A DNA stretch of 64,000 bases from Cavenderia fasciculata (Eukaryota > Evosea > Eumycetozoa > Acytosteliales > Cavenderiaceae), in NCBI RefSeq assembly GCF_000203815.1, contig NW_004457703.1, forward strand, positions 558,001 through 622,000. Direction: 5' to 3'. The position numbers and the translations under genes were made by a program. Below are positions 23,924 through 64,000 of this stretch, piece after piece. Numbering within the stretch: position 1 is the first letter of the stretch; the number at the start of each line of letters is the position of its first letter. Below the pieces are notes generated by a model. That model searched no databases, was not told where the DNA came from, and was given only the letters and a program-made list of their open reading frames with translations.

Positions 23924-26900
23924 ATGAAAGCACTGATATTATTATCATTGCTATCGAGTGTGATGAGTGTCACCATTATTATGGCTCAACCAGAGGTCAT
24001 TTATACCGAATCAACCATTCAAAAGAACTTTGTTGTTATGAGTGTCTATGCAAATAGTGCTTGTAGTGTTGGTGGTACTCCAACAGGTCTGCCTGAAAAG
24101 ATTGTTTCGTTTATGCCAAATACTTGTTACAACTATCCCACGTTTAGTGTCAATGTCTCTGTTTCAACAACCAACCAATATTCATACCAATTCTACACAC
24201 TACTAGGTTGTTATCCACAATCTGCAAGCAGTATAGCAATCCCTACCATGCCATCAAAATGTATTATCACCGATAACACTGGTACCACCCCTTCACCTCC
24301 ATGGATGACCTTTTACCTTGGTCCTCCACCCATTCCAACGTTGACAGGGCTATCATCAAGTTTATATTATGAACGTTTATCAACTACCATTTCGTATGTC
24401 TTCTCTCCCCTATATATATATATATATAAATGTTAACAGTCAACAACTACTCGCACTAATATAATATCTTTGATTATTATTTATTTTATTATTTAGTACT
24501 TGTAATATTACAAATATAAATAATTATCAAAATCAAAGAGTTGTTATTTTACCAAATACATGTACTTTTAGTGATATGCGATCCGGGTCTATCAAGTCGC
24601 TAGATGGAACAGCATCGAGCATTCAACTGGATACCAATTGTGCTGGAGGATCACCTGTTACCTATCAAAGTCAATGTCCACCGACGTTGGATGGTCAAAG
24701 GATTATGAGTGCCTTTAAAAATGGGTTGATTTCAACTTCCAATCCAATCCCATCCGTTACATCCTACACTACTGTAGGTGTGTCTAATCTGAACTTTGGG
24801 TATCCTTTGGGTACAACCATTTTTGCAAATGTGACTTGGTTGTCATCCAATGGATCATCATGGAATCAACAACCAGGTTACATCTATAAAATGTCCGATC
24901 AAATGTATTTCCCTTCTCCACACGTTAATTTCACAGGTTACCTTTTGTTTGTTCAAAATGGTTTAAATTATGTCCTCAACAAACCAAATTCAATTGAATT
25001 TAAAACTTCACAATTTCATATCCCTCCTTGTAAGTAAATTAAAAAATATATTTATTTATATATATATATATTTATTTATTTTATTTATTTATTTAATAGA
25101 TCCAAAAATGAAGAGTATTTCAACTACATTGATAACTACAAGAAAAATAGAATTTAATTATCAATCAGAGGGAGGATTTGTTGGTCAAAACTTGTATGGA
25201 ATTGTAGTAGTAGTGTTTCCTGGTGGTGTGGTTGGTGGAGTATATGATCAATCTACTTGTCCACCAGTTGGTTGTGTACTGAATGATTTACCAGCTGGAT
25301 CAGGCATCTCTATCAAGGTAACGGTCAACAATACGTTTGCGACTAATTTGATGCAGAAAGATGTTATGCTTGCACTGCCAATCGAAACATTTGATTTTAC
25401 ATTGACTATTGTATCAGATACCGTCGAGATTGGTTTCGTCTACTTGGGATATGGGTATGGTCCAAGCACCAGTGGCCTCTTGATTGAATCTAATGGTGTC
25501 AAGTTGGTAGACATCTCTTCTATCCTCACTGCCTCTTACATCTATTCGTACAGTTCAACTACCCCCACCATATTCACGGTCACTTGTAATGGTACCAATG
25601 ATGGAACTACTTTGAATGCTCCATCACAACAATTTATATCAAAAGGAGGTACGTAAAGTTTATCAATCTTATTATTAATATATTTAATTTAATTTTTAAT
25701 TAATTTTTTTTATTCTTTTAGATTTTAAATTAAATAATGTTACGATTGAATGGGTTGGTCTTACAAGAGCAATGGTTTCATTTGGAGCAGAGGGTTTAAA
25801 CCCTAATTATACTTTGTATATTGATTCAATGGATGGTTCTTCTTGGACTGAAAAGAATTCATTACAATACCTCATTACACCATTAGTTGCTTCAACATAC
25901 TACCAGTTTGAGGCCTATATTGAAGACACTGTGACCACCCTCAGAACTGATTCAATTATTTTCAACTTGACCACTGTTGTCAGTTACCCACCCATTACCA
26001 ACTTTACAATCACACCTTTCCAGTGATTAAATTCAAATGGGACAAACAATGCCGAATTTACATTCTTTTCTCTTGGAGGAGAACCAAATGCAACCATTTA
26101 TACATGGACTACTGATTATCCAGTTGTAACGGATAACTATCAAAATAACATTTACACTATATACAATCCCATCATTCCTAGTGGTCCCTTTAATATGGAT
26201 GGGTATGCTGATAGTGTTCCCTATTCAGAAAAAACAAATTTAATCTTTTCATTATACAATTGTATGTACTCATATAGAATAATAATTTAAATCAAAATTA
26301 TATAAATAATATTAATTAATATTATTTTTATAGTCCCATCTTTAGAGGCAAATGTATCAGCTGAATATGAATCTGTTTTAATTCAGTGGAATAGTACTGG
26401 TGGTGTACCTGGTAATATTACCTATCAAGTATCAAGTATTCCCTCTGACACCAGAAATTCGCCGTATGTATGGTGCAGTGGAATGAATATTAATTCATGT
26501 CTCATCACTGGATTGGTATCACAAACAAATTATTCATTTGAAATTCAAATGTCATCAGTTCAATTTGATCCATTTGTTAAAATAATTAACACTCAAACAA
26601 AACAATGTATGTTTTATATTTTTATATTTTATTCATTAAATGTTAACCTTTTTTATTTATTATTAATAGATCCAAATAATGTAACATGTGTTGATTATAA
26701 TAATGGAAATAGTCAAGTTGATTGTAATGGTCATGGTGAATGTATTGACAGTACTTGTTTATGTGATGATTCAAGAACTGGTATTTATTGTGAAATCGTT
26801 ATTCCAGGTGGAAATGGAAATGGAACAAATGGTGGTGGTGGAGGAGGATCAACAATTGATCCAATCTGTTGGCATTGCAACTCTGATGTTTCCATTAAAA

Positions 26901-26950
26901 TTAATAATTTTTTTTTTTTTCATCAAAAGCACAACCCAGATATACACTGA
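23924..26950 (+). pseudogene. ComC-like surface protein, copy A: in-frame stop and 3' truncation
   Basis: Exons 23924-24393, 24497-25029, 25100-25648, 25722-26261, 26334-26606 and 26670 onward match the intact copies in order and phase (2, 1, 1, 1, 1). The signal peptide (ALILLSLLSSVMSV) and four beta-rich ectodomain exons are present. A TGA at 26024-26026 interrupts exon 4, after which the homologous frame continues (GGEPNATIYTWTTDYP). Exon 5 is the fibronectin-like module (STGGVPGNITYQV). Exon 6 has the EGF module (QVDCNGHGECIDSTCLC). After GSTIDP at about 26874 the similarity stops, and the frame runs into unrelated AT-rich DNA to 26950. The membrane-proximal ComC domain, TM and tail are absent. 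Exons 5 and 6 are nearly identical to the copy at 53111, suggesting recent duplication or conversion. No full product is expected. Confidence 0.75.
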
Positions 26951-27198: not shown

Positions 27199-29899
27199 AT
27201 GAATAATAATAATAATCATCATTGTATAAATAGATTACTAGTACTATTAGTAGCGCTAGTTGTAATAAACAACAACATTAGTCACAATACTATTGGAGTA
27301 GAAGCGCAATCAAGAAAGTAGCCGTACCGCTCCCCTCTTTTTTTTTTTTTAAATAGTACTATTTATCAAATGTCTTGATGACTAATGTAACTACTTTCTT
27401 TTTAAATAGAAGGTCCGATTTATATTACAGCCAAACGACTCGTAAATTACAACACTATCAATGTGTCTTGGGTAATTGATCCACCTGGTCATGGTCCAAT
27501 CACCGTCCTTTTCAATGTTTCACAATCAAACTTGAGCAATGTCACTCGCGATACCTTCACTGATAACAGGTCTTGGGTCAATTTTCCGGTTGGCCTAGAT
27601 CCTGCCAATTATACTTTTCATATTACAGCTGTGAATGAAGGAACAACTAGATCAAACTCTCTTTTGGTCCGATGGCTTGGTCGTATGTATTTTCTATAGA
27701 TTAAAAAAAGATATTTAATAATTAATAATTAATTAAATTTATTCTTTTTTTTTTTTTTTTTTTTTTGAAAGCATTGATAATTAGTCATTCAGAAATTACA
27801 AAAACTACTACAAATAAGATTCAAGTTACATTGGAAGTGGTTGGAAGTGATGTCCATTATTTTAAATTAAATATTACCGTAAATAATATGATGACAACAA
27901 CAAATTTTCCAGTGATCATGGAAGGGCCAGATTTCTTTGTTGTTCAAATTGAAATGCCAGAGAGTGCAACGACCCCTGTCAGTATAGTTGCTTTCGATGA
28001 TGATGGCCGTGTTTCCAACACTGTATATTTCGACGCGACAACCTACCCAGTCATCTCGAATCTCTCGTTGCAAGTTCTTCAAGTGTACGACGCTGGGTAT
28101 TTTATAGTGACGGCACACCATGATGGAGGTGTACCAGGTGATACTTATTATACATTTGGCTTTCGATACTCATCCCAGACACCCGAAAAACAGAAACACA
28201 ACTCTACACTCTATATCTTACCAGATGACCTCACTGTCTCTTACCCAATTAACATTACAATTGATAATGATCTAAAAGTATTATTTATCTCTACTGTAGA
28301 GACCGAAATTACCTTTTATAATTGTAAATATAAAAAAAAGAAAAAAAAGAAAAAGAAAATGAATATCTTAATTAATTAATTTCTTTTATTTATATTCATG
28401 ATTTAGTTCCAACTATAAATTCAACCAATTCAACAAGTGATTATGAATCAATTTATTTGACATGGATTAGTGATGGTGGAATGCCAGGTAATATTACTTA
28501 TCAAGTATCTGTATCTAATCCAAAATCAACGATTCAAGTACCATTGATTTGGTGTTTAGGTTCGAATATTAGTTCATGTCTCATCACTGGATTGACTTCA
28601 AATACTGAATATTCTATTGAAGTTCAAATGTCATCTGTTCAATTCTTACCAATTAATCAAACTATTTTTGTTTCAACTTTACAATGTATGTTAAGAACAA
28701 ATCAAATTAATTAATTATTTAATTAAATATTAATTGGTTATTGTATTTAATTTAGATCCAAATAATTATACATGTATTGATCGTCAAGGAATTAATAACT
28801 CAGTTGAATGTAATGGATTTGGTGAATGTATAAATGGAATATGTCGATGTGTGAATAATAGAGTTGGCATTTATTGTGGCACAGTTCTACCTTTTTGTGG
28901 TGGAAATGGTGATGGTGGAGAAGAGGTAGCAGATTATCGGGTAAACAGTCACGTCGAACCATCACCAAACAAACCCAAAGCAGTTGTCAACAATGCAGAT
29001 ATATTTTATCAATTTGTTGTTTCACAAATTAGAGAATTAGATATTGACCAAAATATTATCAAGTCATTGGATTTAACAACTCTCAACTGGACAATGACAA
29101 ATCAAACCAATCAACCAACATATCACCTTTAATTTTACTTAATAATTGGTTTTATTCAACATATAGTAATAGTAATAGTAATAGTATTTATAGAACAATT
29201 AAAATTACATTTTTACAATATGTACAACAAGATGAAGAAGAAGAAACAACTCCAACTTCAACTCCAAAAGACATTCCAGTTACATTTGCAGGTCAATTAT
29301 TTTATGTTACAGTTGGATCGATTAAATATACAATTGATATTGAAGGTTGGAATTTTGGTAGTCAATTAAATACTCTTGAATTGGTTACCAATATCACTCA
29401 ACCATACAATGATAAAGATCAAGACACGACCATCGTCAACAACAATATAGTATCAACCAACTCTACCGATTTCACATCGTTTGTAATTGGAACCGATCAA
29501 TTAGTTTTAGGTAAATTAATTAATCGTGCATTATTGGATGATATTCCTCGAAAGGTATCGAATCGAATTGTTTCAGTACCACTATCACCCTCCAGTTCCT
29601 CATCCTCTTCTGAATCTCAACAACAAATGTTATACAGTATTATTACAACGATACCATACTTTAATCTCAATGCTGTATTTGATCCAGAGCTTCAATTATT
29701 GGTCAAACCAAATGACCGTTCGTCATCATCATCTTCATCAAACTCATGGAAGATTGTTGTTGGTGTAGTAGTTGGTTTTGTTGTTGTGGCTGCAGTCTCT
29801 GTGGCCACTATATTCTACAGAATCAAAATGAATACTCAAAGACGAGATTCTATTAGCAGGCAAGAAAGGTTCAGAGCATTTAGCATAAACAACAACTAA
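27199..29899 (+). pseudogene. ComC-like surface protein, copy B: short form lacking N-terminal domains, frameshifted
   Basis: A signal-peptide exon (ATG 27199, NRLLVLLVALVVINNN, ending GVEAQ) is followed directly by the second half of an exon-3-type module (27410-27682, INVSWVIDPPGHG), then 27772-28323, 28407-28685 and 28756 onward. Domain exons 1-2 and half of 3 seen in the intact copies are missing. The first exon meets the next in the wrong phase, so no clean product results. In the last exon the EGF (VECNGFGECINGICRC) is followed by a four-base deletion at about 29117-29122 relative to the copies at 58424 and 61051. The frame then resumes to a TM (WKIVVGVVVGFVVVAAVSV) and the tail ending SINNN at 29899. 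Best called a pseudogene. The closest relatives are the minus-strand copies K and L. Confidence 0.7.
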
Positions 29900-30037
29900 T
29901 AGCTTCCCGTTCAACCAATTCCGAATTGAAGCCGTCGATGACGTCCTGCTCTTGACGCCTCGCGCCCTTTTTCAATAAAAAATTAATTTTAATCGAAAAA
30001 ATCTCAGTTGCGTAGAACATTTCGAATGGCTTTGAGA

Positions 30038-30170: not shown

Positions 30171-33100
30171 ATGTATTATAATACTCAAAATAGAAGAATA
30201 CTTTATATTACAAGTATAGTAGTTTGTATTTTAATTAATTTCAGTTTACTATGGGACTCGGTCGGTGTGATGGTAGTGGAGGCTCAGCAGCAGCCCACAT
30301 ACACCCCAACCCCTAAATACAGTCTTGCTACCACCCCATACCCTGTCACTTTCAAACATTATAGCACTCTAGGATGCACTGGAACCCCTATGAAGGTAGT
30401 TTCATTGTACCCAGGTGAATGCATGCCTTATTACAATAATTTTTTTGTGACACTCATCGATGTGGGTGGGTTACTCGGTGACGAGTGATTGCATCATTCC
30501 CATCTTTTCAAGGCCAAAACCGCTAGTTTGCACATTTTGGTCTGAAATGGATGCCTATGTCATGGCGACTACTGATGTTCCCATCATGCCCGTTCCATCA
30601 GATACAGTTGGTTATTTATACTATGAAAAATATTCAAATCAATCGTATGTTTAAATTAATATAATTGAAAAGAAATCATTGAAATAATAATATTAATATT
30701 TAATTAATTAATATTTGTTTTTAGATGTAATATTGATACAGATATGACACTTAAATATTCGAGGACAGTTGTAACACAAAACTTATGTGTTTCGGATGAT
30801 GTTGGATCAAAGGTTAGAGCACTTGGAGGAACCAGTTCATCGATCCAGTTAAATATGACAGCATCACTTGATTGCGTGACGTCATCTGATACACGAACCT
30901 ATACAACTGGATGTCCAGTGACACCAGACTCTTATCAAATAGTCAATGCCTTTGCATCAAAGAGTGCATATACTAAAGTGAACCCTACCATCACAGTCAT
31001 TGGATACAAAGATATACTCATTGAAAACGGATCGTTTGGAACAGAGCCAGCATCAGTCTTCGCATTCATCTTATGGTTTAATTCACAGATGATACAGATT
31101 GGATCAGATTCCAGTATTTACAAGATGAGCAGTCAAATGGTTGTCTCTATCGGTGGATTCCCAGCTGCCACTCCAATGTACATTAAATTAAAGTCCTATG
31201 GTATGGACTTCTCCGGTGCTCCAATAGAAATTATCTCACAATCTTTAATTCAATTTCCAGATGGTAAGTAACTGTGTAAAACAAATCAAATCAAAAAAAA
31301 TCAAAACAAACAAACAAACAAACAAACAAACAAACAAACAAACAAACAAACAAACAAACAAACAAACAAACAAACAAACAAACAAACAAACAAACAAACA
31401 AACAAACAAACAAACAAACAAACAAACAAACAAACAAACAAATAATAATTAATTTTTTTTTAAATTATATTTATAGTACCAACCATTTCACAGTTAACTC
31501 CAAGTTTAATAACTACTAGAAGTTTTACAGTCACATCAACTTTACAAGGTGGATTTATCGGAGAGAATGTTTTTAAAGTAACAACTTCGTATTTAGGTAC
31601 CATTTTTAGTCCGAGTTGTAATACGACCAATATTTGTACATTGAGTGGGTTCCCACCGGGTGTTGATGTCAGTCTCACGGTTAGAGTTACCAACAGAGGA
31701 CGAGCGGCTACTTCTAGTCTTTTAGTTCCCCTCATGGAACCAATCACCAATTTAGAGATTGACAGTGTAGTTCGCATTCCAGCTGGTATGAATATTTCTT
31801 ACTCTCTATCTGGTGGAATAGGAACCTACTACCTAATCTCTATTACCAATTTAAGTACCACTGGTGGTAATCCAGTCACATTCAATACAACCAATTCATA
31901 CTTGCTATACAATACTACAATCACTGCCAATTATTCAATCGTCGTTGATGCTTTCGATGATGGAACTCATCTATCAACTCAAACTACCTATGAATATAAT
32001 TATAGTATGTAAAAAACATAAACAGAAAACATCCATTAAATGAATGAATCATTTTAAATTAACTAATTGTTTTTTTATTTTCTTTTAGATTTAAAAATGG
32101 AAATTCAAATTATTGATATTAGAACTACAAAAGTATACTTATTGCCAATTGTTAAAGGAGTGATACCAAACGTTTCAACTAATTTTACGGTTAGTTTGAA
32201 TGGTATTGCTGATCCAATTGATTATACCGATTTTGTAGAGTTTTCGTTATCTACGCTACCAGACACACTCAACAAAGTTTGTATGTTTGCAGTTGACGCC
32301 AATCTTAGAAGTTCACCTAGTACATGTATCCAATTCAACTCGTATCCAACTATTGGCGATCCGTCGGCCATTTATACGCAGAGAATGAATCTGTCCAACG
32401 CTCCACAATTCTATTCAAATGGATGTCAATACTACTGGAGGTGTTCCAAATAATTCAACCTATACTCCCACTTTTACTTTCCTAGGTAAAGTTGTCAGTC
32501 CCCCAACATCCAGTAGTATCCTACTCAATGGAATAACAATTGCATCCAATACCTTTAATATCAATGTAACCATTGTAAATGATATTACAACTTTATTATT
32601 TCAATCTTCATTTAAACTTTATTCATGTAAGATAATCAAAATTAATTATAAATATTTAATGACGAATATATTTATTAATCTTTATTCTATTCTTTATTTA
32701 TTTTTTAGTCCCAGGAATTATTGAATTCAAAAATATTGTAGATTATGAAACTGTTAATTTAACATGGGTGGGAATGGGAGGTATGCCAGGTAATATCACA
32801 TACCAAGTATCTATATTCAACCCAAATGCAACTGGTCCACAACTCGTATCAAATGTTGTTTGTAATGGACTAGGTATTTCAAAATGTAGTGTCACTCGAC
32901 TGACTTCAAATTCATACTATGGTTTCACTCTTAAAATGTCGTCTGTTCAATTTGATCCAATTGAATCAACTATTTATGTTCATACCTTAACTTGTAAGTA
33001 AATTAAAAAAAAATATAAATATTTAAATATTAATTTATTTTATTGTTCTTTTTATAGATCCAAATAATTATACATGTATTGATCATCAAGGTATAAATAA

Positions 33101-34154
33101 TACAGTTGAATGTAATGGATTTGGTCAATGTATAAATGGTACATGTTTATGTGTGAATAATAGAATTGGAATTTATTGTGAAACTCCAACAACTGATCAA
33201 GGAGGAAACAGTGGTAATGGAACCAATGTAGATCCAAACCCATCGGTTCCAGAGATTGTTATTACCAACTCGAATATATTCTATCAATTTGTAGTCTCTC
33301 AAATCAGAGAGGTCGATGTTGACGATCATGTTATCACCAACTTGGATCTAACCACTTTAAATTGGACTTTAAAAAATGAAACGACTACTCTTAATAACTT
33401 GGTTACAAGTTTTTGGAATTATTCATCAGTTGCAACCAACACAAGTATAAAGTATTTAAATGCCATTCATATCAACTTTATACAAATTAAATATCAAGAT
33501 GACACAAATATTAATGGAGAAGAATCAAAGATACCATTAACATTTGCAGGTCAATTATTTTATATTGATGTTGGAGCTATCAAATATACAATTGAAATTG
33601 ATGGTTGGCATTTTAATGGTAGATTAAATACACTTCAATTGGTAACAAATGTAACTCAACCAGAGCAAGTTGATGAATGTGGTGATGGTAGTGGAAGTGT
33701 TGACTCTGCCGACTTGGATATTCAATTTAATGGAAACATTGTAACAAACTCTACGGAATTTACATCATTCTTTGTTGGAAAGGATCAAATGATTTTGGGT
33801 AAATTATTGAATCGTGCACTATTGGATGATATCCCAAGAAAGATTGGATACACAGTTGCACCATATACCAACCCATCCAACCAACAACAGATGCTCAGTA
33901 TTGTAACACTCATCCCTTACTTTACATCCAATGCTGTCATGGATCCAGATCTCTCTCTTTTAATCAATGTCGACAGTGGAAAGAATGAATGTTCTTCACC
34001 GTCGTCCAACACTTGGAAGATTGCTGTCGGTGTGGTTGTTGGTGGTGTTGCTGCTATTACCATTGCTACAGCATCTATCATGTATTACAGAAAGAAAATG
34101 ACCTATGTAAAGAATCAAAAAAAGATGGAAGCAAAATTAAAAAATTTCAATTAG
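30171..34154 (+). pseudogene. ComC-like surface protein, copy C: two frameshifts
   Basis: Exons 30171-30644, 30725-31263, 31477-32004, 32089-32626, 32709-32993 and 33058-34154 follow the family layout. The signal peptide is at about residues 10-40. Exon 1 loses frame near 30460-30480 and is shorter than its homologues there (frame resumes as GYSVTSDCIIP). Exon 4 has a second shift near 32417, between SNAPQFYS and MDVNTTGGVPNNS, so its length is off by one. The last exon is intact: EGF (VECNGFGQCINGTCLC), ComC-type domain (FAGQLFYIDVGAIKYTIEI), TM (WKIAVGVVVGGVAAITIATAS) and basic tail (YYRKKMTYVKNQKK). Intron 2 carries a (CAAA)34 tract. It could still be a functional gene if the shifts are assembly errors. 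Confidence 0.7.
31306..31441 (+). repeat. (CAAA)n tetranucleotide array inside an intron
   Basis: About 34 perfect CAAA units fill most of the second intron of copy C. The reverse strand reads as an open FVCL frame purely because of the repeat. It is not coding and not a CRISPR array, since there are no spacers. Confidence 0.95.
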
Positions 34155-35103: not shown

Positions 35104-38100
35104 ATGATAACAACAACACACAGAAGCTGTACCAGCAGTACTGTGAAAAGTCATCATCATTTTATTTTAATTTTTTATTTATATTTTTGTGTGGTTGGTG
35201 TGGTAGTGTAACTTCACAGCCAACGTTTGTTGAAACTAGTAGCATACTAACAGCAGAGTATGTAAACGTAGCAATCTATCAACAACTAGATTGTAGTGCG
35301 TCGGGTCAACCCAAGGCTGCATCAGTCCCACAAAAGGTCGTCTCCTTCTTACCCGATCAATGTTACCAATACGATGTAAAGAGTGTCAAGGTGTCAGTAT
35401 CGGCTAATAAACCATACATGATCACATACAACATCTACAGTACATCCGACTGTTCTCTCGCACCTCTTGCCACAAACTACAATGATGGCGTGTGTGCTGC
35501 CCCGTACCAAGGTGTTGGCAAATGGGCTTATTTCAAGGTCGGTCCACCTCAATCAGCTTCGTCTAAAGGTTCAACTCCTCCTTTTCTCTATTTTGAAAAG
35601 ATTGCTACTACTTCGTATGTACATTTGTATTAAGTTATAAAGAGAGAGAGAGAGAGAGAGAGAGAGGATGAGAGGATATAGAGTAGATATATTAACTTTT
35701 TGATTTACTTTATATAGTGTTTGTGAAGGAATAAGTAATAAGACATATTATAATGCAAGAACTATGTTGTCGATTGGTCAATGCACTTATAATGACTATA
35801 GTGATTTCGTTGTACAAGGAGTTAGTGGTGATGCAACCTCTATCACCTTTGCAAATGATGTGTCTATTTGTACGGGTGCTGCAACTATGTATTACGGTGG
35901 ATGTAATATATTGGGTCCGCATCGTATTGCAAATGCATTCCTAACTGCTACTACGCCGACCACCAACGAAGGCTACGTCGAAGCAGTATCGTACACGGCA
36001 ATCAATCTGACCAACCTCGACTTTGGATACAATCTTCACAGCAAGTCGTTTGGATCGATTGTCCTCGTACCATCGGTTGGCTCACCCGTTGACTACAAGC
36101 CAGGCTACTCATTTATCATCTCCAAAGATATGACATTTATCAACTTGCCAAACCCCTTTCAAGGTCTCATTAGAGTATACCAAGATTCATTTGATTATAT
36201 CAAAAATACCTCTATCCCATTTATTAAAACAAATTCTTTTTCAATGCCTCTATGTATGTACACATAACAACTAAAAGTATTTATTTATATTGTTATTAAT
36301 TAATATTTATTATTTATTTATTTATATTATTTAATATTTTAGATCCAACAATAAATCAATTTGATATAGTTTCGGTGACAACTGATACAATTCAAATTAA
36401 TTTTACATCGATTGGAGGATTTAATACGGATGGTGGTAATGTGTATCAAGTGACTACTCAATCACCGGGATCGCAAACATGGGAGTGTTTGCCTGCCACT
36501 GTGTGTACTTTGGACGGGTTGCCAATTGGGGCAATGGTCTATGTCACTGTCAAGGTTACCAATTTCGGCCAGTCCCAAGCTAAAATACAACAGGTCCAAT
36601 TAAAGTCAATCATTAGTAACTTGGGCTTTGACCTCGTTCCCTCGTACAAGGCCATCAATATTTCATTCACTCTGGGGTCAATAGGAGAAGGACCAGTTAC
36701 CTATACAGCAGATATCACAGATCTAACTACCTCGACTACTCGATCATCAACAACATCTACACAATCCTATATTGTATTCCCAGCTTCATCAACACCAACC
36801 AATTATACAATTAAAACATCTGCTACCAATAGTGGAACAATACTTAATTATTCAAGAAATTTTATTTGGTTAGGAGGTAAACATTTAAAAAAAACAAAAT
36901 ATTAATATTTATTATTAATATTTAATATTTATTAATTTTAATTTCTTTTCTATTTTTTTTTTTTTTAGATATTAAATTAAATACAACATTCAATCCAAAT
37001 ACAGTTGCAATTAAATCACTTACAGTATATAATAATGTTAGCAATCTTGCCAATTCAACTTCATATGTTGCTTATTTTTATGATGGTGATGTGCTTGTTT
37101 ACAATGTTACCAACAAAACTGCATATTTAAAGATTGATAATTTACGAGCAGACACAAATTATAATCTTTCATCGTTTATCGTTGACCCATTGACATCTCG
37201 TCGTTCCAATATCGAGTACGTCGTATTCAAAACCTATGCCAACTTGTCCAACTTTGAAGTTGCGGTCACACAACGAAAGAATGAAACTGATGCAACCAAA
37301 ATTTCATATACCTTTGTCATGACTTGGTTAGGTGGATCGCCACTGCTTTCTTTTGCTCATCCCTCCATGAATTACTTCCCCGGTACTGGTGGGGCTCTAC
37401 TCAATACCAATGTTAGTAATATAGTGATTGGAGTTAATATCCCCTTTCCATTTGCTGATAACCTATATTATGCTGCTCTCACAACTGCTCAAGATAATAT
37501 CCGTCTCGATAAAAAGGTATTCATAAATTATTTCCCTTGTAAGTTAAATAGTAAAAAGAAAAAATTTAAAAATTATAAAAAAAGTACTTATTAACTAATC
37601 AAAATAATAATATTATTATTATCTATTATAGTCCCAAATATTACATCTTTGGATTTTACAACAGGACATGATACTGTAAATTTCACATGGGCAGGTATTA
37701 ATGGTGTCCCAGGTAATATTACCTATGGATTATCGATTTTTAACCCTCTTACTCCACAAGTAGCTCCATACACCTTTTGCATTGCATTGAATCTTGGTTT
37801 TTGTAATGTGTCTGGTTTGATTCCAAGCACCGATTACTCATTTACATTAACAATGAAATCTGATCAATTTGATCCTGTGACTCGTTCAGTCTCTGTTCAA
37901 ACTATTCAAAGTAGGCATATAAAAATATTAAATAATCAAAATAATTAAATATTAATTTATTTCTTATTATTTAGGTCCAATTAGTCCATGTATGGATTTA
38001 AAGCTTGGAGCTAATAATACAATTGATTGTAATGGATTTGGTCAATGTTTGAATGGTACATGTTTATGTGTGAATAATAGAGTTGGTATTTATTGTGAAA

Positions 38101-39056
38101 CTCCAACTACCGACCAAGGTGGAAACAGTGGAAATGGAACCAATGTAGATCCAAACCCATCGGTTCCAGAGATTATAATCAACAACAAAAACATATTTTA
38201 TGAATTTGTTATTTCACAAATAAGAGAGGTTGATATTGAAGACAACACTGTAAAGATGGTGGACTTGACAACACTCAACTGGACACTTTCCAACCAAACA
38301 TCAATCTACAACACTTCATTTATTCAAAGTAATTGGATTTATATGACCTCGAATAATAGTTATTTCAATTCAGTCAATATTACCTTTTTACAATTTAAAT
38401 CAACCTCAGACAGCCAATCACAGTCAAAGATACCATTGACATTTGCAGGTCAATTATTTTATCTGGATGTCGGTTCGATGAAATATACTATCGATATTGA
38501 TGGTTGGGAATTTGATAGTAGATTAAATACACTTGAATTAATAACCAATATCACTCAACCACAAAGAAATGATGGATGTGGAGAATTAGATATAGATTTT
38601 AATAATAATAATATAGTCACCAATTCAACAGAGTTTACATCAGTCTATGTTGGAGAGGATCAAGCTGTTGTTGGCAAATTAATCAATCGTGCATTATTGG
38701 ATAATGTACCAAGAAGAATATCATATAAAGTACAACCATACCAATCAACAGATAATAACAACAATCAAGACAGCGATACACCAAAACAAATACTCAGTAT
38801 CATTACACTCATCCCCAACTTTAATTACAAAGCAACACTTGATCCTCAGTTTGACCTTTTAATCAATTCAGATCCAGAGGATAATTGTGCATCTTCATCA
38901 AATTCTTGGAAGATTATCGTTGGTGCTGTAGTTGGTGGCATTGGTTTGATGGCTGTTGGTGCTGGTGTTACCATACATCAAAGAATGCAATTAAAGAAAA
39001 AACAATACAACCTAAAATTAAAAAAGGTATCAATGGAGATGAATAATGGTAATTAA
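35104..39056 (+). CDS. ComC-like EGF/ComC-domain surface protein, copy D (one-base lesion in signal peptide)
   Basis: Exons 35104-35614, 35718-36253, 36343-36876, 36969-37538, 37632-37910 and 37975-39056 give about 1170 residues. The only problem is in the signal peptide. The ATG frame (MITTTHRSC) meets a stop, while the mature frame (TSQPTFVETSS) is one base out. One extra T in the T6 run near 35173 would join them and give a normal signal peptide. The ectodomain exons are followed by the fibronectin-like exon (VNFTWAGINGVPGNITYGL), EGF (IDCNGFGQCLNGTCLC), ComC-type domain (FAGQLFYLDVGSMKYTIDI), TM (WKIIVGAVVGGIGLMAVGAG) and basic tail. Many N-glycosylation sites are present. The last exon is almost identical to copy E. 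In D. discoideum ComC is needed for normal aggregation-stage development, and ligands of this family are not established to my knowledge. Confidence 0.78.
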
Positions 39057-48400: not shown

Positions 48401-49415
48401 TGGAACATGTTTATGTGTTGGTAATAGAGTTGGTATTTATTGTGAAACGGAAAAGAATCCTGGAGGTGGTGGAAATAATGGTACCAATAATGGTGGCAAC
48501 ATTGAACCAAATCCAACCAACCCTTATATAATTATTGTAGAACAAGATGTATCGTATCAATTTACATTTTGGCAAATTAGAGAGGTTGATTTGGACGACC
48601 AAATTGTAAAGACTTTGGATTTGACAGCCATGAATTGGACTCTTGACAACCAGACCAATCAAGATACACCAGTATCACCATCAATCATATTGAATCAATG
48701 GAAATACAATAATAATAATAGTTTGGAGTATTTCGATAAGATGGGTATCACATTTACTCAATACCAACAAAGACCTGGCTCGACAACCAACAACACGACT
48801 GACCAACCAAAAATACCAGTGTTGTTTGCAAACCAAACCTTTTATATTGATGTTGGATCACTCAAATATACAGTCAATATTGAAGGATGGAATTTCAACA
48901 GTCGATTAAATACTCTTCAAATCCTGACCAACATTACTCAACCTAAAAGTGACAGTGGATGTGGTGATGACGAGTCACTAGAAAACACAGTCACAAATTC
49001 AGCCGAATATACTTCATTCTATCTTGGAAAAAAGTCAGCAGTATTGGGTAAATTCATCAATCGTGCATTATTGGATGAAATACCAAGACGTATTAAATTT
49101 GCCATTGAAAATAGCAATAACACCCAAAGTGACAATAGGAATACACAAACATTGACATTCGTAACTTTAGTTCCTTATTTTCAATATTCAGCCACTCTCG
49201 ATCCTGATCTCCAACTTTTGATCAGTCCCACCCAAGATGAACATTGTAACTCAAATTCCAATACATGGAGGATCGCAGTTGGCGTGGTTGTTGGTGGTGT
49301 TGCAGCCGCTGCCATTGTCACAACATCTATTGTGTTGTACAAAAAGAAACTGATTGCTAAAAATTTAAACAAAAAATTTGCAAACAAATTAAAGGTGTTT
49401 AATGAAAATGAATAA
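45492..49415 (+). CDS. ComC-like EGF/ComC-domain surface protein, copy F (intact, one GC-AG intron)
   Basis: Exons 45492-45985, 46073-46620, 46708-47259, 47345-47890, 47974-48240 and 48322-49415 total 1167 codons (1166 residues) without a break. The fifth intron needs a GC donor (48241-48242). The nearest GT option shifts the frame into a stop. Layout is as in copy E: signal peptide (IVAIIQIVFIILCSF), N-terminal Cys domain (DKPEKVVSFMPNYCYPYD), three further ectodomain exons, fibronectin-like exon (SSGGMPGSIQFQV), EGF (VFCNGFGQCLNGTCLC), ComC-type domain with a FWQIREVD variant, TM (WRIAVGVVVGGVAAAAIVTTS) and basic tail. The last exon is more diverged from copies C to E than those are from each other. 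Its 3' end overlaps the minus-strand gene coding frame by about 27 bases. Confidence 0.87.
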
Positions 49416-52357: not shown

Positions 52358-52987
52358 ACAAATAACAACAATATTATTGGTAGAGAGGATTGATAAATAG
52401 AATAGCACAAACAAAATAATGGTCATCATTGTCTTGTGTTTGTGATTTATCTTTTGAAATTTCAAAATGTTTTTAGGGAACATTGCCCATTATGAATGAT
52501 AGTCATCATCATTTTCTATATATGGCAAAACAGTGAACTGAGTTTGATCCATAAAATATCTCAAAAAATATCATGAGAAAATGATTCTTTTTTAATCTTC
52601 CAAATTTATTTTCTTGTTCTGACAATGATAACATTGTTACTTTAGTTTCCTAAATTTAAAAAACTTTGAGATGAATAATAATGATCTATTCCATGGTTGT
52701 TGAATTGGTGTTTGTTAGTTTAACTATTAAACAACTAAATTGGACCAGATCTCAATTCTCCCCCAATCTTTTGCATTTTTTACACGTATTAAATCAATAA
52801 AATAAATCTATCAACAATAGAGATAATAGAATATTATTTACTTCACCGTTTAAAAGGTGATGAATTTCATTGTTCGTGATCATGAATGTCTCAGGGGTTT
52901 TCCCGGATTTGAAAAAATTAAAATTTTAATTGTTTTTTTATTCGTCGCCGTTTCGAAAAACGCTGAGATTTATCTCAATGCAATTGG

Positions 52988-53110: not shown

Positions 53111-56100
53111 ATGGAGAATAAAATGTTTTACAAAAACAATGCAATCGCAGTAGCAGTATTATTTTTAATGTTTATATTATCAATAATATCTAATCATCGA
53201 GTAGCAGCACAAGAAACAGTACTATCAACCCAAACAAAGGATTTTGTGACAATGATAATCTATGCAAACACTGATTGTTCATTGGGTGGACTTCCCACAC
53301 AACCTCCACTCAAAGTAGTTTCATTCAGTTTCAACACTTGTTACAGCTACGGAACATTCAGTGTACAGATACAAAATATTCAACCTTATTTCTACACTAC
53401 CTACGATCAAATCAATTGTGGTGGTGCCATTGATAACATTGCTTTTGACCAATCGACAGGTAAATGTATCAAATCTGACGCATCTGCTACACCATATTGG
53501 TTGGTTTTTAAAATCGGGCAACCTCAAACACCATACATCTTATCATCATCCTATTTATACTACCAAAGAGTCCCCACTACAGTTCTGTATGTTTAAACTA
53601 TACCATCAAAAAAAACTGGATTTATATTTATATAATTTTAAATTTCTTTTCTAATCTATCATTTATTCTACTCTTACATACTAAATATATAGTACATGTA
53701 ATATGGCAGTGACTACCAATTACGACTATCAAAGAGTTGTTGCCAAACCTAGTAGTTGTATGATGAATGACTACCCAACAAGAACTATGTTAACCAATAC
53801 TGGAACGGTTTCACGAGTCACTCTAACACACAATCCAACAGGTTGTACTGGAGGTACCAGCTCTAATTATGGGTCATTTTGTGCAGCACTTGATTCATCT
53901 CGTATCGCCAATGGAATGGTGACTTTTTCGTCGCCATTGCCTGATCCCTCAGTAAATGTAGTCACCTTTGGCCGTATATCAATCTTGGAACCTGCTTATG
54001 GTTTAACAAACGTTGCATTGTATGCACATGCATCTTGGCAAGCTGCCAATGGTACATCCTGGGATCACAAACCTGGATATGTATTCATGTTGGACAACAA
54101 TATGTATTTCAATGCTCCAATGAATTTCACAGGTCATTTTATCTTGACAATCGATGGATACAATTATATTCAAGATAAAAATATAACTACTCTTGTATCA
54201 TCTGAATTTTATTCACCTGATTGTAAGTCCTGCAAAATATTATAAATTATCCGATATTAATATTAATATATTTTATTTCAAATTTAGATCCAAAAATTCA
54301 ATCTATAAATATAATAGATGTAACAACAAAGAGAATTGAATTCAGTTATGACCCAACTGGTGGATTCCCAAATCCCCTATTTGATATTGAATTGTTGGAT
54401 GACCAAGGTACTATTTTGATGTTTGATACCGGTTCAAATTGTCCACCTGTATATTGTGTATTTGATATGTTACCAAAAGGCATAAATGTGACAATCAAAG
54501 TAGAAATGACTGATATAGCAGGTTTTGTCGACACATTGTCAGTAACGGTCAACCTAGTAGATCCAATATCAGCATTCAATTTTACTCTGACTCCTCAATC
54601 ATCTCCTTATCCTTCTGTCAACATTTCATTCCAATACACTGGAACTGGTTTTGGAGGATGCACAACATGTCTTTCAATTATAGACACTCGAACCAATACT
54701 CAACAATTCACATCCTCGTCCCTCTCAACCTCATCCTATCTCTTTGGACTCTTGTCACCATCACCAACCATTTACAACTTTACTGCCAACGGTACAAATG
54801 ATGAATTAACTCTTTATCCACCTTCTCAACTTTATACTTTTATTGGTTGTATGTATTATTTGTCATTTTTTTAATTAATTAATTAATTAATTATATTTTC
54901 TTACTGTCTCTCTTTATAGTGAATTTTGGTATAAAAAATGTTACTATTCAATCAATAGAGATTACATCGGCATCAGTTTTATTTGGAGTTAATGATATCA
55001 ACCCAACTTTTTCTTTAATTATTACCGATCTGGATTCAACCATTTCAGTACAATCTTCAAATACTTTAGAGTATAATTTCACAGAATCCCTATAAGCAGG
55101 TGCTACTAATCGATTTAGTGCACTCTTGAGGGACACCTTTACAAATGTTGAATCAAGTCTATTTTATTTCAATATGACCACCTATCCTCTATTGTCGGAT
55201 TTTACAATCACTGTATCCCAAAAAATCAATTCATCCGATCCTAATAGTAACTATTTAGAGATTAGATTCGATTCGATTGGAGGTGCTCCCAATGCAACCA
55301 ATTATGGGTACACTTCAGACTATCCTAAAATTTTAAAAGGAAATTATTCTGAATTGGGAGTATTTACAGATGCCAACCCTATTCTTCCCAGCGGACCTTA
55401 TTCCATTACAGGTCAAGCCAATAATACTCAATCCATTCTAACAACAACCACAATATTCTCTTTATATAATTGTAAGTATATAAATCAACAAGAAAAAAAG
55501 AGGTTAATTAAAATGAAGATTTATTAATCTTTTATTTTATATTTATAGTCCCTTTAATCAATGTAACAGGATCAACTGAATTTGAAACAGCCCTTATTGA
55601 GTGGAATAGTACTGGTGGTGTACCTGGTAATATTACCTATCAAGTATCGAGTATTCCCTCTGACACTAGAAATTCGCCGTATGTATGGTGCAGTGGAATG
55701 AATATTAATTCATGTCTCATCACTGGATTGGTATCACAAACAAATTATTCATTTGAAATTCAAATGCTATCCCCAATATTTGATCCAGTTGTTTTAAATA
55801 TCGACTTGCAAACTAAAAAATGTAAGATTAAACTGTTAAGTTTTAAAATAATAATAATAATAGCTAATTAATTATTTGATTGATTTATTGTTAATCCTAT
55901 TCCTTTTTTATTTATTATTAATAGATCCATATAATGTAACATGTGTTGATTATAATAATGGAAATAGTCAAGTTGATTGTAATGGTCATGGTCAATGTAT
56001 TGACAGTACTTGTTTATGTGATGATTCAAGAACTGGTATCTATTGTGAAATCGTTATTCCAGGTGGAAATGGAAATGGAACAAATGGTGGTGGTGGTGGA

Positions 56101-56835
56101 GGATCAACAATTGATCCAAATCCAGGGATCCCAGAAATTATAATCACCAATGACAATTCATATTATAAATTTGTTATATCACAAATTAGAGAGGTCGATA
56201 TTGATGATCAAATAATTAAACTGATCGACCTAACATCATTCAATTGGACACTGTCCAATCAAAGCAATCAAGCAACATCAATATCACCATCAATTGTTGT
56301 TAATTATTGGAATTATTGAACATTACCAAAAGTAAACACCAACTTTAATTCAATCAATATTACATTTTTACAATTCAATAATACTAAAGATATTAATCAA
56401 GGAGATAAGAAGATTCCAATCACATTTGCAAGTCAAACATTTTATATTGATATTGGATTACTCAAATATACAATCGATATTGATGGTTGGGAATTTAATA
56501 GTAGATTAAATACTCTTCAATTGGTCACCAACGTATCTCAACCAATTATTGATTATGGAGAGTGTAGTGATAAAGAAAATGATGATGGATCTTTTAATAA
56601 TATTATCAACAATGCCACTGAATTTACCTCATTCTATCTTGGTAAAGATTCAGCAGTATTGGGTAAATTAATTAATCGTGCATTATTGGATGATATTCCA
56701 AGAAAGATATCTTATAGAGTTGAACAAATTCAAGTTACTGGAGAAGAAGAACAATTGAGTGTCATCACACTTGTTCCCAATTTCAACAGTCGAGCCACCC
56801 TCGATCCAGACATGCAATTGTTGGTAAAGAGATAA
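53111..56835 (+). pseudogene. ComC-like surface protein, copy J: two in-frame stops, TM missing
   Basis: Exons 53111-53586, 53693-54222, 54288-54848, 54920-55471, 55549-55821 and 55925-56835 keep frame throughout (1101 codons) but contain TAA at 55093-55095 (exon 4, after TESL) and TGA at 56317-56319 (exon 6, after NYWNY). Signal peptide (AVLFLMFILSIIS), all ectodomain exons, EGF (QVDCNGHGQCIDSTCLC) and the ComC-type domain (FASQTFYIDIGLLKYTIDI, INRALLDDIPRK) are recognisable. It ends at MQLLVKR, just before the linker and TM of the other copies, so even a read-through product would lack an anchor. Substitution-type stops rather than indels make assembly error less likely. Exons 5-6 are close to identical to copy A. 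Confidence 0.78.
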
Positions 56836-58423: not shown

Positions 58424-60839
58424 TTAACACTTTTGGAGGATTTTTTGGCTGTATCTTCTTGATAATTCTAGTAACTTTAACCTTAATTGTAAACGAGCCT
58501 TGTACTTTTTTTCTTTATCCATTTTGATTTTATAGATAATAGTGGCAATCGAAATTGAAATCAAAGTAGCAACACCAATGACTACACCAACAATAATCTT
58601 CCATTTTTTTGATGGTGTTGTCAAAAATTGGTTAATGGTATCAACATTGATCATCAATTGAAGATCTGGATCAAATACAGCATTAAGATTAAAGTATGGT
58701 ATCGTTGTAATAAAACTGTAGGACATGTGTTGTTGAGATTTTTCTTAGAGTATTCAATTCGATTTGATATCTTTCGAGGGATATCATCCAATAATGCACG
58801 GCTAATTAGTTTGACCAATATAAATTGATCATTTCCAATTAAAAATGATGTGAATTCTGTAGAGTTGGTTGATAATATATTATTGTTGTAATCTTCTTGT
58901 CCACATTTATAGTTGTATGGTTGAGTTATATTGGTAACCAATTCAAGAGTATTTAATCTATTACCAAAACTCCAACCTTCAATTTCAATTGTATATTTAA
59001 TCGATCCAACTGCCAAATAAAATAATTGACCTGCAAATGTAACTCGAATGTCTTTTGGAGTTGTTTCCTCTTCTTCTTCATCATCCTCCTCTTCTTGTTG
59101 TTGTACATATTGTGAAAATGTAATTTTAATAGTATTGTAGAAAGAACCATCACTATTTGTTGAATATATCCAATTATTAAGTAAAATTAAAGGTGATATG
59201 TTGGTTGGTTGATTGGTTTGATTTGTCATTTCCCAGTTGAGAGTTGTTAAATCCAATGACTTGATAATATTTTGGTCAACATCGAGTTCTCTAATTTGTG
59301 AAACTACAAATTGATAAAATATATCTGCATTGTTGGTGACTATTTTTGGGTTGTTTAGTGATGGTTCGACGTGACTATCCCAATCCCTTCCACCATCACC
59401 ATTTCCACCACCACCACCAGGTTTTACAGTACCACAATAAAGTCCAACTCTATTATTCACACATCGACATGTTCTATTCAAACATTCACCAAATCCATTA
59501 CATTCAATTGTATTATTAATTCCTTGGCGATCAATACATGTATAATTATTTGGATCTAAATTAAATACAATAATTAATTATTAGTCATTGATTTTTAATC
59601 AAATTTGATTTTTGTTATTTTGCTATTTTTTTTAATTTACTTCATACGTTGTAAAGTTGAAACTAAAATAGTTTGATTGATTGGTAAGAATTGAATAGAT
59701 GACATTTTAATATCCACAGAATATTCAGTATTTGAAGTCAATCCAGTGATAAGACATGAATTAATATTGGCACCTGAACACCAAACCAACGGTACTTGAA
59801 TCGATGATTTTGGATTGGATACAGATACTTGATAAGTAATATTACCTGGCATTCCACCATCACTAATCCATGTCAAATAAATTGATTCATAATCACTTGT
59901 TGAATTGGTTGAATTTATAGTTGGAACTAAATAAATAATTAGAAAATGAAAGAAATAGAATATAGCTCTTCTTCCTATTCTTTTTTTTTCTATTTACTTA
60001 CAATAATAAAAGGTAATTTGAGTATAAAGGGTTAAATCGGTACCATCATTATTAACCATCAAGGATAAATTTTGAGGATCAGTGACAAAATCTGGCATGT
60101 AATAGATGATACTGCCGTTATACATTGTCCTTGGTAGATAATTGATTGTAGACCATAATGAATAATTCGAATCACCTGGTACACCTCCATCTGAGTGCCG
60201 TCAATTCAAGATACCAATCATTGGGATCGTTGGTTGAAAGGTCGTATGCTTGAAGAACCTGCTTTGTGAGATTCGAGATGACTGGATAGGTTGTCACTTT
60301 GAAATATAAAGTGTTGGAAACACCATAAAAATCATAAGCAACTAGCCCAACATTTGTTGTTGTCCCAGATGGTAGATTAATTGAAATTAATCGATTTGTC
60401 ACGTCACTAAACCTAACTTCGGTGTAGGTCATTGTATTATTTAAAGAAATGTTACAAAATACCATGCCATTCTCGCTTGGCACTGAAAATGTAAAATCAA
60501 CAATCTTTGTCTTGATGTTTAAAATTTTTGGATCACTAATAATTAAAGCTAAACAAAAAACAAATACAATAGTATTAGATGAAAGATAATGAATAAATGG
60601 ACCAGTTCATTGATTCTAATAGTAATACCTACGGTCTAAATATTTATCAAATCAAGTTTGAATAAGAGGTGAACCAATATATAGCCAACATTTTGATTTG
60701 AAGATTAGAATCTACATTGTAACATACCTGTAGGAATTTGAGTTTGTCCGAATCCAAAACTATTGAGATGATTGTTGACTATTACTAGAACTAATATTCC
60801 AAATAATATTCGAAGTATATAAATAATACTGTTATTCAT
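58424..60839 (-). pseudogene. ComC-like surface protein, copy K: short form, two frameshifts
   Basis: Minus-strand exons 60839-60728, 60548-60002, 59926-59648 and 59555-58424. The signal-peptide exon (RILFGILVLVIVNN, ending QTQIPT) is phase 1 and joins directly and in frame to an exon-4-type module, so the domains of exons 1-3 of the full-length copies are absent. A one-base lesion at about 60190-60200 (after LELTA, before SDGGVPGDS) and another in the T5/A5 run at 58739-58743 break the frame. Otherwise the fibronectin-like exon (SDGGMPGNITYQV), EGF (NRTCRCVNNRVGLYC), ComC-type domain (FAGQLFYLAVGSIKYTIEI), TM (WKIIVGVVIGVATLISIS) and a longer basic tail ending ILQKC are complete. It pairs with copy B as a shortened subfamily. 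Confidence 0.72.
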
Positions 60840-61050: not shown

Positions 61051-64000
61051 TTAATTATTATTATTTATTTCTTGAAATCTTTCTTGTAAACGGACATTGT
61101 ACTGCTTTCGAGTATTCATTTTGATTTTATAAATAATAGTGGCTACAGAGACTGCAACCACAGCAGCAAAACCAACTACTACACCAACAACAATCTTCCA
61201 TGAGTTTGATGGTGATGACAAACATTGGTCAATAGCATCGACATTGATCAACAATTGAAGATCTGGATCAAATACAGCATTAAGATTAAAGTATGGTATA
61301 GATGTAATAATACTATATAACATTTGTTGTTGAGATTCAGAAGAGGAGGATGAAGATGAGTCTGAATCTGATAACACAACTGATACTATTCGATTTGATA
61401 CCTTTCGAGGAATATCATCCAATAATGCACGATTGATTAATTTGCCTAAAACCAATTGATCATTTCCAATTAAAAATGAAGTGAATTCTGTAGAGTTGGT
61501 TGATACCATATCGTTGATGGGATCTTCTTTTCCACATTTATCGTTGTATGGTTGAGTGATATTTGTAACCAATTCAAGAGTATTTAATTGACTATTGAAA
61601 TTCCAACCTTCAATATCAATTGTATATTTAATCGATCCAACTGCAACATAAAATAATTGACCTGCAAATGTAACTGGAATGTCTTTTATAGTTGCTTCCT
61701 CCTCTTCTTGTTGTTGTACATATTGTAAAAATGTAATTTTAATTGCTCTATAGGTTGAATCTTTTGAACGACTATATGTTGAATAAATCCAATTATTAAG
61801 TAAAATCAAAGGTGATATGTTGGTTGGTTGATTGGTTTGATTTGTCATTGTCCAGTTGAGAGTTGTTAAATCTACAGATTTGATAATAGTGTCGTCAATA
61901 TCTAATTCTCTGATTTTGTGAAACGACAAATTGATAAAATATATCTGCATTGTTGATTATGACTTTTGGGTTGTTTGGTGATGGATCAATATGACTTCCT
62001 CCTCCTCCACCATCACCATTTCCACCACCAGGTTTTACAGTACCACAATAAAGTCCAACTCTACCATTCACACATAAACATGTTCCATTCAAACATTCAC
62101 CAAATCCATTACATTCAATTTTATTACTCATTCCTTGACGATCAATACATGTATAATTATTTGGATCTAAAAATAAATAAATAAATAAATAATTAATATT
62201 AATAAATTAAATTGAGATTTGTTTTTTTAATTTTCTACATACATTGTAAAGTTGAAACTAAAATAGTTTTGTTGATTGGTAAGAATTGAACAGATGACAT
62301 TTTAATATCCACAGAATATTCAGTATTTGAAGTCAATCCAGTGATGAGACATGAACTAATGTTTGAACCTAAACACCAAACCAACGGTACTTGAATAGAT
62401 GATTTTGGATTAGAGACTGATACTTGATATGTAATATTACCTGGCATTCCACCATCACTAATCCATGTCAAATAAATTGATTCATAATCACTTGTTGAAT
62501 TGGTTGAATTTATCGTTGGAACTAAATTAAAAAAAAAAAGAATTCTTAATTAATTATTATTATTATTTTTTTGTCTATTTACTTACAATAATAAAGGGTA
62601 ATTTCAGTATTAAGAGATAATGTTGTTTGATCATTTTCAAGTGTAATGGTCATTGGTTGAGGGATAGTGGTGATAAAGGTTGGCATGTAATAGGTGATTG
62701 AGTTGCCCTGTTTGCTGGTCGATTGTGATACGATAGGAGTCGAGTATGCATATGTAGAATCACCTGGTACACCTCCACTCGACAGTGTTGTCACTAAAAG
62801 ATACCAATCATTTGGATCATTGACAGTCAAGAGGTCGTATGCTTGAAGAACCTGCATTGAGATATTCGAGATGACTGGATAGGTTGTCACGTTGAGATAT
62901 ACAGTGTTGGACACACGACCAACGTTATCGTAAGCAATAAAACCAACGGTCGATGTTGTTCCAGATGGCACGCCAATTGTATATCCAGACCCTTCGGTAT
63001 AAGGAACCCCTGTATGAAGAATTTCATGATTTAGCGTAAAATTTAAAAGCACAGGACCATTATCTCCAGACAATGTAAATGTAAAAACAACACTCTTTGT
63101 AAGAGAAGACATTATTTTTGTATTACTTACAAATAATGCTTATAAAAATAAAAATAAAATAAAAAAGAAAGTTAAATTAATAAATTAATATTAAATTAAT
63201 TAAATAAGTATACATACAACCAAGCCATTGAAATGTAGAAGAGGTAGATTTAGTTGTACCATCATTTATAGCTGTTAAATGAAAAGTATAATTGTCGGGA
63301 TTTTGACCAACTGGAAATTCAAACCAAGTGATGTTTTTGTCAGTGAAGGAATGGAAAGTGAAATTACTAGAGGTTGTTTGTGATACATTGACAAGGACGG
63401 CGGTTACACCGTAACCAGGTGGATCGATTACCCAAGACACATTGATAGAGTTGTAAAGTGGTGTGGTTTTAAAGCTTGCTATGTCAATTGGAGGTAGCAA
63501 TGTAAATGGTTGTATATTTGTTGAACTTTGACCACGGTTGGTAACTCCAACAGACACAGAGATTATAGCTCCCACTGGCAAGTCATTCATGATACAAGTA
63601 GTGGTATACTGACACTCGGGATAATTGTATCTTCCAGGTCCCAAAGATCCAAACACAACATAAGTATTGGCATTTGGTGGATCATATCCACCCGATACAA
63701 CATAACTAATATTTAATGAACTAGTCGTTTTAGAATTTAAAATAATACTATCAATTATTGGTGCTAAAAAAATAATCAATCAATAAATAAATGAAATTAA
63801 TATATATTCTATTTCTATCTCTATTCTTTTTAGTTTAGCTTTGTACGTACTTGATGGAAGTATAAATGAATTTGATTTTAATGAAACCATTGTTGCATTT
63901 AATATATAGTCTGCTCCAAAAGGGTTGGCATAGATAGTCAAGTTTCCAGTGTATGGTATTTGATTGATGATCATGGCAACGCCCGTTGTTTTGTATATTT
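61051..64000 (-). pseudogene. ComC-like surface protein, copy L: partial at window edge, one frameshift
   Basis: The 5' end lies outside the window. Minus-strand exons visible: part of exon 2 (64000-63851, IPYTGNLTIYANPFGADY), 63763-63218, 63138-62587, 62521-62243 and 62166-61051. All are phase 1 as in copies E and F. It has the exon-3 module (VSGGYDPPNANTYVVFG), exon-4 module (LSSGGVPGDSTY), fibronectin-like exon, EGF (IECNGFGECLNGTCLC), ComC-type domain (FAGQLFYVAVGSIKYTIDI), TM (WKIVVGVVVGFAAVVAVSV) and basic tail. One extra base in the A4 run at 61914-61917 (FVVSQ | IRELDID in the paralogues) shifts the frame in the last exon. If that is an assembly error, this is a functional full-length gene. 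Confidence 0.75.

Follow-up and report, generated by a model that had tools for sequence, protein, structure and literature searches.

Bounded tracts of likeness over the EGF-like and supersandwich domains in a cluster of ComC-like genes of Cavenderia fasciculata

How do genes for surface proteins become diverse in their outward-facing parts and stay alike in the parts close to the membrane? In social amoebae, families of surface proteins decide adhesion partners, and this combination of outside diversity and membrane-near likeness is addressed here in a cluster of ComC-like genes of Cavenderia fasciculata. The window, i.e. the whole stretch of DNA analysed, comprises 64,000 nucleotides (C13:558001-622000, C13 being contig NW_004457703.1; C1, C3, C14, C17, and C18 are likewise contig labels in this genome of 31.0 Mb and 21 contigs). 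Nine ComC-like loci of a six-exon type (copies A to I) were found across positions 23924-64949, seven on the plus and two on the minus strand, and thus all loci named in a preliminary description of this DNA were located. In some pairs of these copies, a bounded tract of likeness covers the EGF-like domain (EGF) and the ComC supersandwich domain (SSD), with flanks that are near saturation at silent sites.

The encoded proteins begin with a signal peptide and two N-terminal domains; FN3-like modules follow, and then EGF, SSD, a transmembrane segment (TM), and a short tail. Signal peptide and TM were assigned by eye. Exons 1-2 harbor the signal peptide and the N-terminal domains, exons 3-5 the FN3-like sandwiches, and exon 6 EGF, SSD, TM, and the short basic tail. 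Wherever a junction model was obtained, both for window copies and for relatives on C14, C18, and C1, intron 1 is in phase 2 and introns 2-5 are in phase 1; junction models were picked by score, and the phase was not imposed. Because introns 2-5 share phase 1, each of exons 3, 4, and 5 is a symmetric 1-1 module.

Leaving aside the pair of copy E and its duplicate on C14 and the group of B, H, and I, DNA identity between copies amounts to 34-57% in exons 1-4 (212 pair-exon comparisons), 50-85% in exon 5 (62 pairs), and 55-97% in exon 6 (62 pairs, the 97% referring to A-G and to 204 nucleotides only). Copies D and E are 39-47% identical in exons 1-4, 52% in exon 5, and 85% in exon 6; for A and G, 49-54% in exons 1-4 and 85% in exon 5 precede the 97% of exon 6. 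Within B/H/I, the values are 60-68% (exon 4), 93-94% (exon 5), and 79-84% (exon 6), and what remains of exon 3 is 75% identical between B and I. The C14 counterpart of E, a whole-gene duplicate, is evenly similar throughout (82-91%). The preliminary description had spoken of four divergent ectodomain exons; their divergence is borne out, the number is rather five, and exon 5 partly follows the stalk.

The proportion of silent sites that differ (pS) follows the same course. Between D and E it is 0.79, 0.78, 0.71, 0.71, and 0.52 in exons 1-5; within exon 6 it is 0.27 in EGF (39 codons) and 0.23 in SSD (257 codons), and 0.59 in TM and tail (54 codons). For the control pair of E and its C14 duplicate, the same three parts give 0.24, 0.25, and 0.27. 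Sliding identity places the steep part of the D-E tract at approximately 37975-38870, with a sharp fall on both sides. The tracts in question are:

37942..38939, plus strand: homogenised tract of copy D, covering the end of intron 5, EGF, and SSD; 88% identical to copy E
44078..45061, plus strand: partner tract in copy E, the counterpart of the tract in D
26283..26864, plus strand: tract shared by A and G, covering exon 5, intron 5, and EGF; 82% identical to 55505-56119

The contrast between a conserved exon 6 and a variable ectodomain, as described beforehand, is real, and it is in part a product of recombination, with which the silent sites agree. Since these sites take the same course as the protein, protein selection is not the whole cause, and an account by selection only is ruled out. 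Introns were rejected as a neutral yardstick on account of their low complexity: true pairs align at 56-77%, shuffled ones at 45-67%.

At 38130-38680, D agrees with E against the C14 duplicate of E at 34 of 41 deciding sites (p 2.5e-5), and four more sites fit neither. One D-E piece thus moved after the E/C14 duplication, and most of the tract may be older. In a run test, D and E show the longest concordant run, 83 polymorphic columns, a length reached in 0 of 2000 shuffles; the pair of D and the C14 copy follows at a distance with 31 columns. Being bounded on both sides, the tract favours conversion over a single crossover, a double crossover being an alternative. A-G and B/H/I represent partial cases of homogenisation. 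Conversion of the SSD stalk was not found in the literature searched, where most subscription papers were outside the scope.

Other arrays of SSD genes in the same genome show the same profile. In the C1 array, four of the five copies were compared (the SSD of the first lies mostly outside the sequence taken), and in all six pairs the leucine-rich repeat (LRR)-like exon and the first TIG exon are far apart, the next exon and SSD are close, and TM and tail are far apart again. Median pS for these five parts is 0.66, 0.67, 0.26, 0.17, and 0.62 (tail range 0.46-0.71), and the SSD exons are open in 4/4 copies. Three copies of a C3 array, the third represented by its last exon only in part, differ in this exon by silent-site divergences (dS) of 0.21, 0.23, and 0.30; for the LRR-like exon, one pair has a dS of 0.47 and the other two are saturated. 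On C17, one pair from a group of ten shows upstream exons with dS saturated and 1.07 and last-exon halves with 0.29 and 0.37; in a second pair, for which the last exon alone was compared, dS is 0.56. Between the four arrays, SSD pS reaches 0.57-0.79 (42 pairs), i.e. near saturation, and hence the silent sites of SSD are free to change. The same bounded tract is general in the arrays of this genome, and the C1 copies are homogenised more strongly than those of the window.

Several results weigh against conversion. In the other four of the five segments, D sides with E no more than with the C14 duplicate. The run test gives P below 0.05 for 9/21 pairs, e.g. C-E, so that constraint contributes to it. 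Among the pairs of C, D, E, and F, SSD is homogenised in D-E only (one of six; pS 0.23, with values up to 0.66 and a median of 0.63), which makes the process patchy, and E and F adjoin each other and yet are not homogenised. C3 copies 1 and 2 differ in dS by 0.47 versus 0.21 only. Tree topology was too weak to serve as the main proof: in the approximately unbiased (AU) test, a grouping of D with E is not rejected on exons 1-4 (p-AU 0.112), and on exon 6 the grouping of D with C18 and C1 is rejected (p-AU 0.022).

Taken together with these restrictions, the locus is probably best explained as an array of ComC-type receptors or adhesins in which conversion keeps the stalk alike and the outer domains form a changing contact face. 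Varied ectodomain exons would be set, as phase-matched modules, on one exon for EGF, SSD, TM, and tail, and gene conversion between copies would make the EGF/SSD tract alike. With less assurance, the SSD stalk might be the constant part for a shared partner or for packing, and the outer domains might mediate adhesion to, or recognition of, other cells or prey. A wider version is offered tentatively, at a clearly lower level of confidence: a repertoire of at least 150 loci, with array-wise conversion keeping the SSD core uniform, could combine many outer faces with one array-specific partner and act as a surface identity or sensing code. The outer faces are TIG and LRR-like in some arrays and FN3-like with an unnamed N-terminus in the window. 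The silent-site profile is a direct and cheap test, repeatable on isolates or long reads; whole-gene dN/dS values and trees of the family mix parts of different age.

The copies differ in their state:

23924..26873, plus strand: copy A, with a stop in exon 4, ending after EGF, without SSD (exons 23924-24393, 24497-25029, 25100-25648, 25722-26261, 26334-26606, and 26670-26873)
27406..29899, plus strand: copy B, partial exon 3 and exons 4-6, without the 5' end, frameshifts in exon 6
30171..34154, plus strand: copy C, all six exons present, frame broken in exons 1 and 4
35127..39056, plus strand: copy D, six open exons, weak donors in introns 3 and 5
41247..45169, plus strand: copy E, intact, 1169 amino acids, six exons, intron phases 2,1,1,1,1
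45492..49415, plus strand: copy F, intact, 1166 amino acids, six exons
48240-48322, plus strand: intron 5 of copy F, which fits only as a GC-AG intron (GCAAGT)
53111..56835, plus strand: copy G, interrupted by stops in exons 4 and 6 and ending ahead of TM
58427..60839, minus strand: copy H, a remnant of exon 1, without exons 2-3, frameshifts in exons 4 and 6
61051..64949, minus strand (window part 61051..64000): copy I, open in exons 1-5 and with a single frameshift in exon 6

Copies E and F are intact, as initially proposed, and A, B, C, G, and H (five of nine) are clearly broken. Of the remaining two, D lacks an in-frame ATG ahead of the conserved part of exon 1, the sole one being at 35418, and the slip in exon 6 of I sits in an A-run, which is one A shorter in B and H. 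Exon 1 and part of exon 2 of I lie beyond the window end, by which gene I runs over by 0.95 kb; the cluster as such is real, and its length becomes 41 kb instead of the forty kilobases first given. EGF, ComC-type domain, TM, and tail are not shared by every copy, as first stated: A is without SSD, and G ends before TM. The copies are products of duplication, which placed them in both orientations and also on another contig: the C14 duplicate of E, which carries an 8-nucleotide deletion in exon 2, takes in a stretch upstream of E (39793-40700, 83%). With five of nine copies clearly broken, two inverted, and one duplicated between contigs, birth and death of copies is supported. Between D and E, at 39376-40700, lies a neighbouring gene with a signal-like start, the second part of which was duplicated to C14 together with E; a Pfam scan of its two frames gives no family.

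On a plain reading, the encoded products would be single-pass ComC-type surface receptors or adhesins, since a sequon-rich ectodomain is combined with signal peptide, TM, and short tail. N-glycosylation sequons number 36 in E and 25 in F over the whole protein, cysteines 21 and 22, and exons 1-2 contain conserved ones. ComC_SSD exceeds its Pfam cut-off (24 bits) in E (28.3), F (31.2), and exon 6 of C (48.8), and also in the C18 relative. EGF_2 in E remains under its cut-off (19.4 versus 22.1 bits), with the cysteine pattern judged by eye; the exon 6 profile matches the EGF stretch of reelin at an E-value of 0.00097. The FN3-like label is partly by eye, and for exon 4 by eye only: fn3 scores 20 bits on exon 5 of E (cut-off 25) and matches 0/10 rows of exon 3, the profile of which hits the IL-31 receptor at an E-value of 0.01. 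PF24142 (Beta-sand_ComC_1st) matches weakly, in one of seven spliced N-termini (E-value 0.005; 18 bits, cut-off 27). CfaA_B_C (PF11912) gave a weak match in 1/10 exon 1 rows (E-value 0.0012) and none in seven spliced exon 1-2 proteins at an E-value of 1. TIG/IPT was not found in E or F at an E-value of 0.01, nor in the alignments of exons 1, 2, and 3 at an E-value of 1. The predicted structure of exon 1 (mean pLDDT 65.9) has no PDB match at an E-value below 0.001 (best 0.34), and the model of exon 2 reaches a mean pLDDT of 53.7.

Selection was estimated exon by exon. Between E and its C14 duplicate, the dN/dS ratio (omega) is 0.27, 0.32, 0.51, 0.62, and 0.16 in exons 1, 3, 4, 5, and 6 (exon 2 was excluded as out of frame), the interval of exon 5 reaching 1.48. 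Within B/H/I, omega is 0.87 in exon 4 (102 codons) versus 0.21 in exon 5 (92 codons; IQ-TREE, kappa 1). By counting, B-I gives 0.98 (0.67-1.38) over 175 codons of exon 4, and over the 102 codons the pairs give 1.18 (H-B), 0.60 (H-I), and 1.04 (B-I). Exon 4 is open in B and I; neutral simulation keeps both open in 0/5000 runs and one in 0.7%, which makes simple neutral drift an unlikely account of the open frames. The per-exon comparison proposed at the outset, made here between copies, is thus divided: values near 1 (0.87-0.98) hold for exon 4 of B/H/I, and the five comparable exons of E/C14 stay at 0.16-0.62. The B/H/I pattern hints at diversifying selection in exon 4, on genes all three of which are now broken or doubtful.

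Among other explanations, adhesion to prey or surfaces comes first. The receptors might bind bacteria or substratum during growth, with ectodomains that follow the prey; this is conceivable at a fairly low probability, and it fits with the fact that no sign in the analysis points to a developmental stage. Somewhat less likely is a mostly decaying family, the ectodomains of which drift under relaxed constraint without a variable function, E and F being survivors. The five broken copies would suit it, as would omega below 1 in the E/C14 comparison; however, E and F keep their long frames with all these cysteines, exon 4 of B and I stays open while changing fast, and other arrays are alike, with every compared C1 SSD exon open. 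A locus for kin or self recognition, polymorphic in the manner of tgrB1/tgrC1, in which selection keeps exons 1-4 diverse among strains, is unlikely. The omega contrast between exons 4 and 5 of B/H/I speaks for it, as does exon 4 being open in B and I in spite of B-I dN equalling dS, and the dynamics resemble those of the tgr locus as given in PMC12324515. On the other hand, omega is low throughout E/C14, E and F lack TIG, and the B/H/I genes themselves are broken or doubtful; according to the same source, dN/dS of tgrB1/C1 is itself below 1, so that omega does not decide. An assembly artefact, with similar SSD repeats misjoined and frameshifts due to read errors, is very improbable: the single A-run slip of copy I would agree with it, but the two partners of a tract are not identical, differing at some percent of sites, and such tracts occur in four arrays; moreover, the damage in A, B, G, and H comprises stops, multi-base gaps, and the loss of exons.

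Compared with known systems, the copies resemble the ComC and ComC-like EGF proteins of Dictyostelium (PF22933, PF24142, PF24143) in having SSD above cut-off (E, F, C), directly preceded by an EGF-like stretch that stays under its cut-off in E, and a single TM with a short tail, a likeness judged by Pfam profiles and not on the D. discoideum ComC sequence itself; they differ in their N-terminus, which matches Beta-sand_ComC_1st weakly, and in their arrangement as an array that includes mosaic copies. The closest published case as regards dynamics is the tgr family. For strain AX4, PMC12324515 gives 38 tgr genes and 26 pseudogenes, local rearrangement, recombination within tgrB1 and tgrC1, and dN/dS below 1. 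With the tgrBC locus of D. discoideum and of its relatives, the window shares clustered intact and broken surface-protein genes, local rearrangement, and intragenic recombination (same source); in contrast, E and F are without TIG, the window is without an intact divergent pair, and its homogenised part is the membrane-near core. E and F stand in tandem on the plus strand, and the sole divergent neighbours are the minus-strand gene at 49392-52489 and G, which is broken. With no TIG present in E and F, tgrB1/tgrC1 is an analogy and not kin by domain. PMC4931340 describes exposed proteins that form large variable families, including ones with TIG and EGF. The arrays on C1, C3, and C17 share the EGF-SSD-TM end and the silent-site profile with the window, and differ in their ectodomain (TIG above cut-off in C1, LRR-like by eye). 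Gene conversion in clustered adhesion genes also links the window to the clustered protocadherins and CEACAM genes of vertebrates; their proteins are unrelated to the window genes, and the process alone is alike. In those clusters, conversion spares one part and evens another.

ComC_SSD is widespread in the genome. From 282 candidates, at least 150 places elsewhere were scored, and since none of them is a window copy, the family is larger still. At a cut of 15 kb, the 150 places form 84 groups, 26 with at least two members; the largest (13 and 10) are on C17. By eye, 32 of the 40 scored places on C17 (0.94 Mb) seem to lie within approximately 196-500 kb. ComC-like clusters as such are common in this genome, and the ectodomain type is what sets the window cluster apart. 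When the C1 relative supplied its exon 1-2 protein as query (E-value 0.001, all 19 candidates scored), this type was found on C13 (seven copies), C1, C3, C14, and C18. The E-values of 7.7e-24 for exon 2 of D and 7.2e-18 for exon 2 of E show that the divergent ectodomains are alike beyond chance. Nine of the 13 loci found are window copies, counting B and H, which were added in spite of lacking those exons or most of them. Exons 3-5 of F as query add nothing beyond isolated weak places, located on C10, C4, and C5. A relative of the C1 copy (71-81% identical in exons 1-2) lies inside the C3 array region, at positions 860-3700 of C3:855001-860000, and stops within EGF, much as A stops just after it. 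In the C1 array, TIG is above cut-off in both exons scanned, accompanied by a sub-threshold Beta-sand_ComC_2nd, EGF under cut-off, and SSD; the C17 exon shows SSD, EGF, and sub-threshold TIG, the C3 exon SSD and sub-threshold EGF. The LRR label of the C1 and C3 arrays is by eye, with Pfam matches in 0/3 C1 and 0/2 C3 exons.

The cluster ends approximately 6.5 kb short of the end of C13 (629417). A subtelomeric origin was rejected: the final 5 kb of C13 contain few telomere-like words, and at least 140 kb separate the C14, C18, C1, and C3 relatives from contig ends. To the left, the cluster borders on a fragment of a BcrAD_BadFG-type ATPase; to the right of gene I follow an unrelated gene and a frame that, judged by eye, is serine-carboxypeptidase-like. 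One gene of another make lies inside the cluster:

49392..52489 (approximate), minus strand: neighbour gene, LRR-like, TIG-like, TM

Both its LRR-like and TIG-like matches are under the Pfam cut-off, EGF and SSD were not seen in it, and the TM that follows (KWKIIVGVVVG) is of the same sort as in the ComC-like copies. Downstream of the broken end of G, a short coiled-coil frame (57246-57422, minus strand) looks Gag-like by eye; it matches Pfam DUF3972 with 28.7 bits (cut-off 26.2), and its DNA is nearly single-copy. A transposon beside this end was rejected, as the flank 56836-58300 matches only itself and one stretch of 53 nucleotides. Outside the cluster, at 15743-16180 on the plus strand, a secreted-looking protein carries a CBM49 cellulose-binding-type domain (E-value 7e-13).

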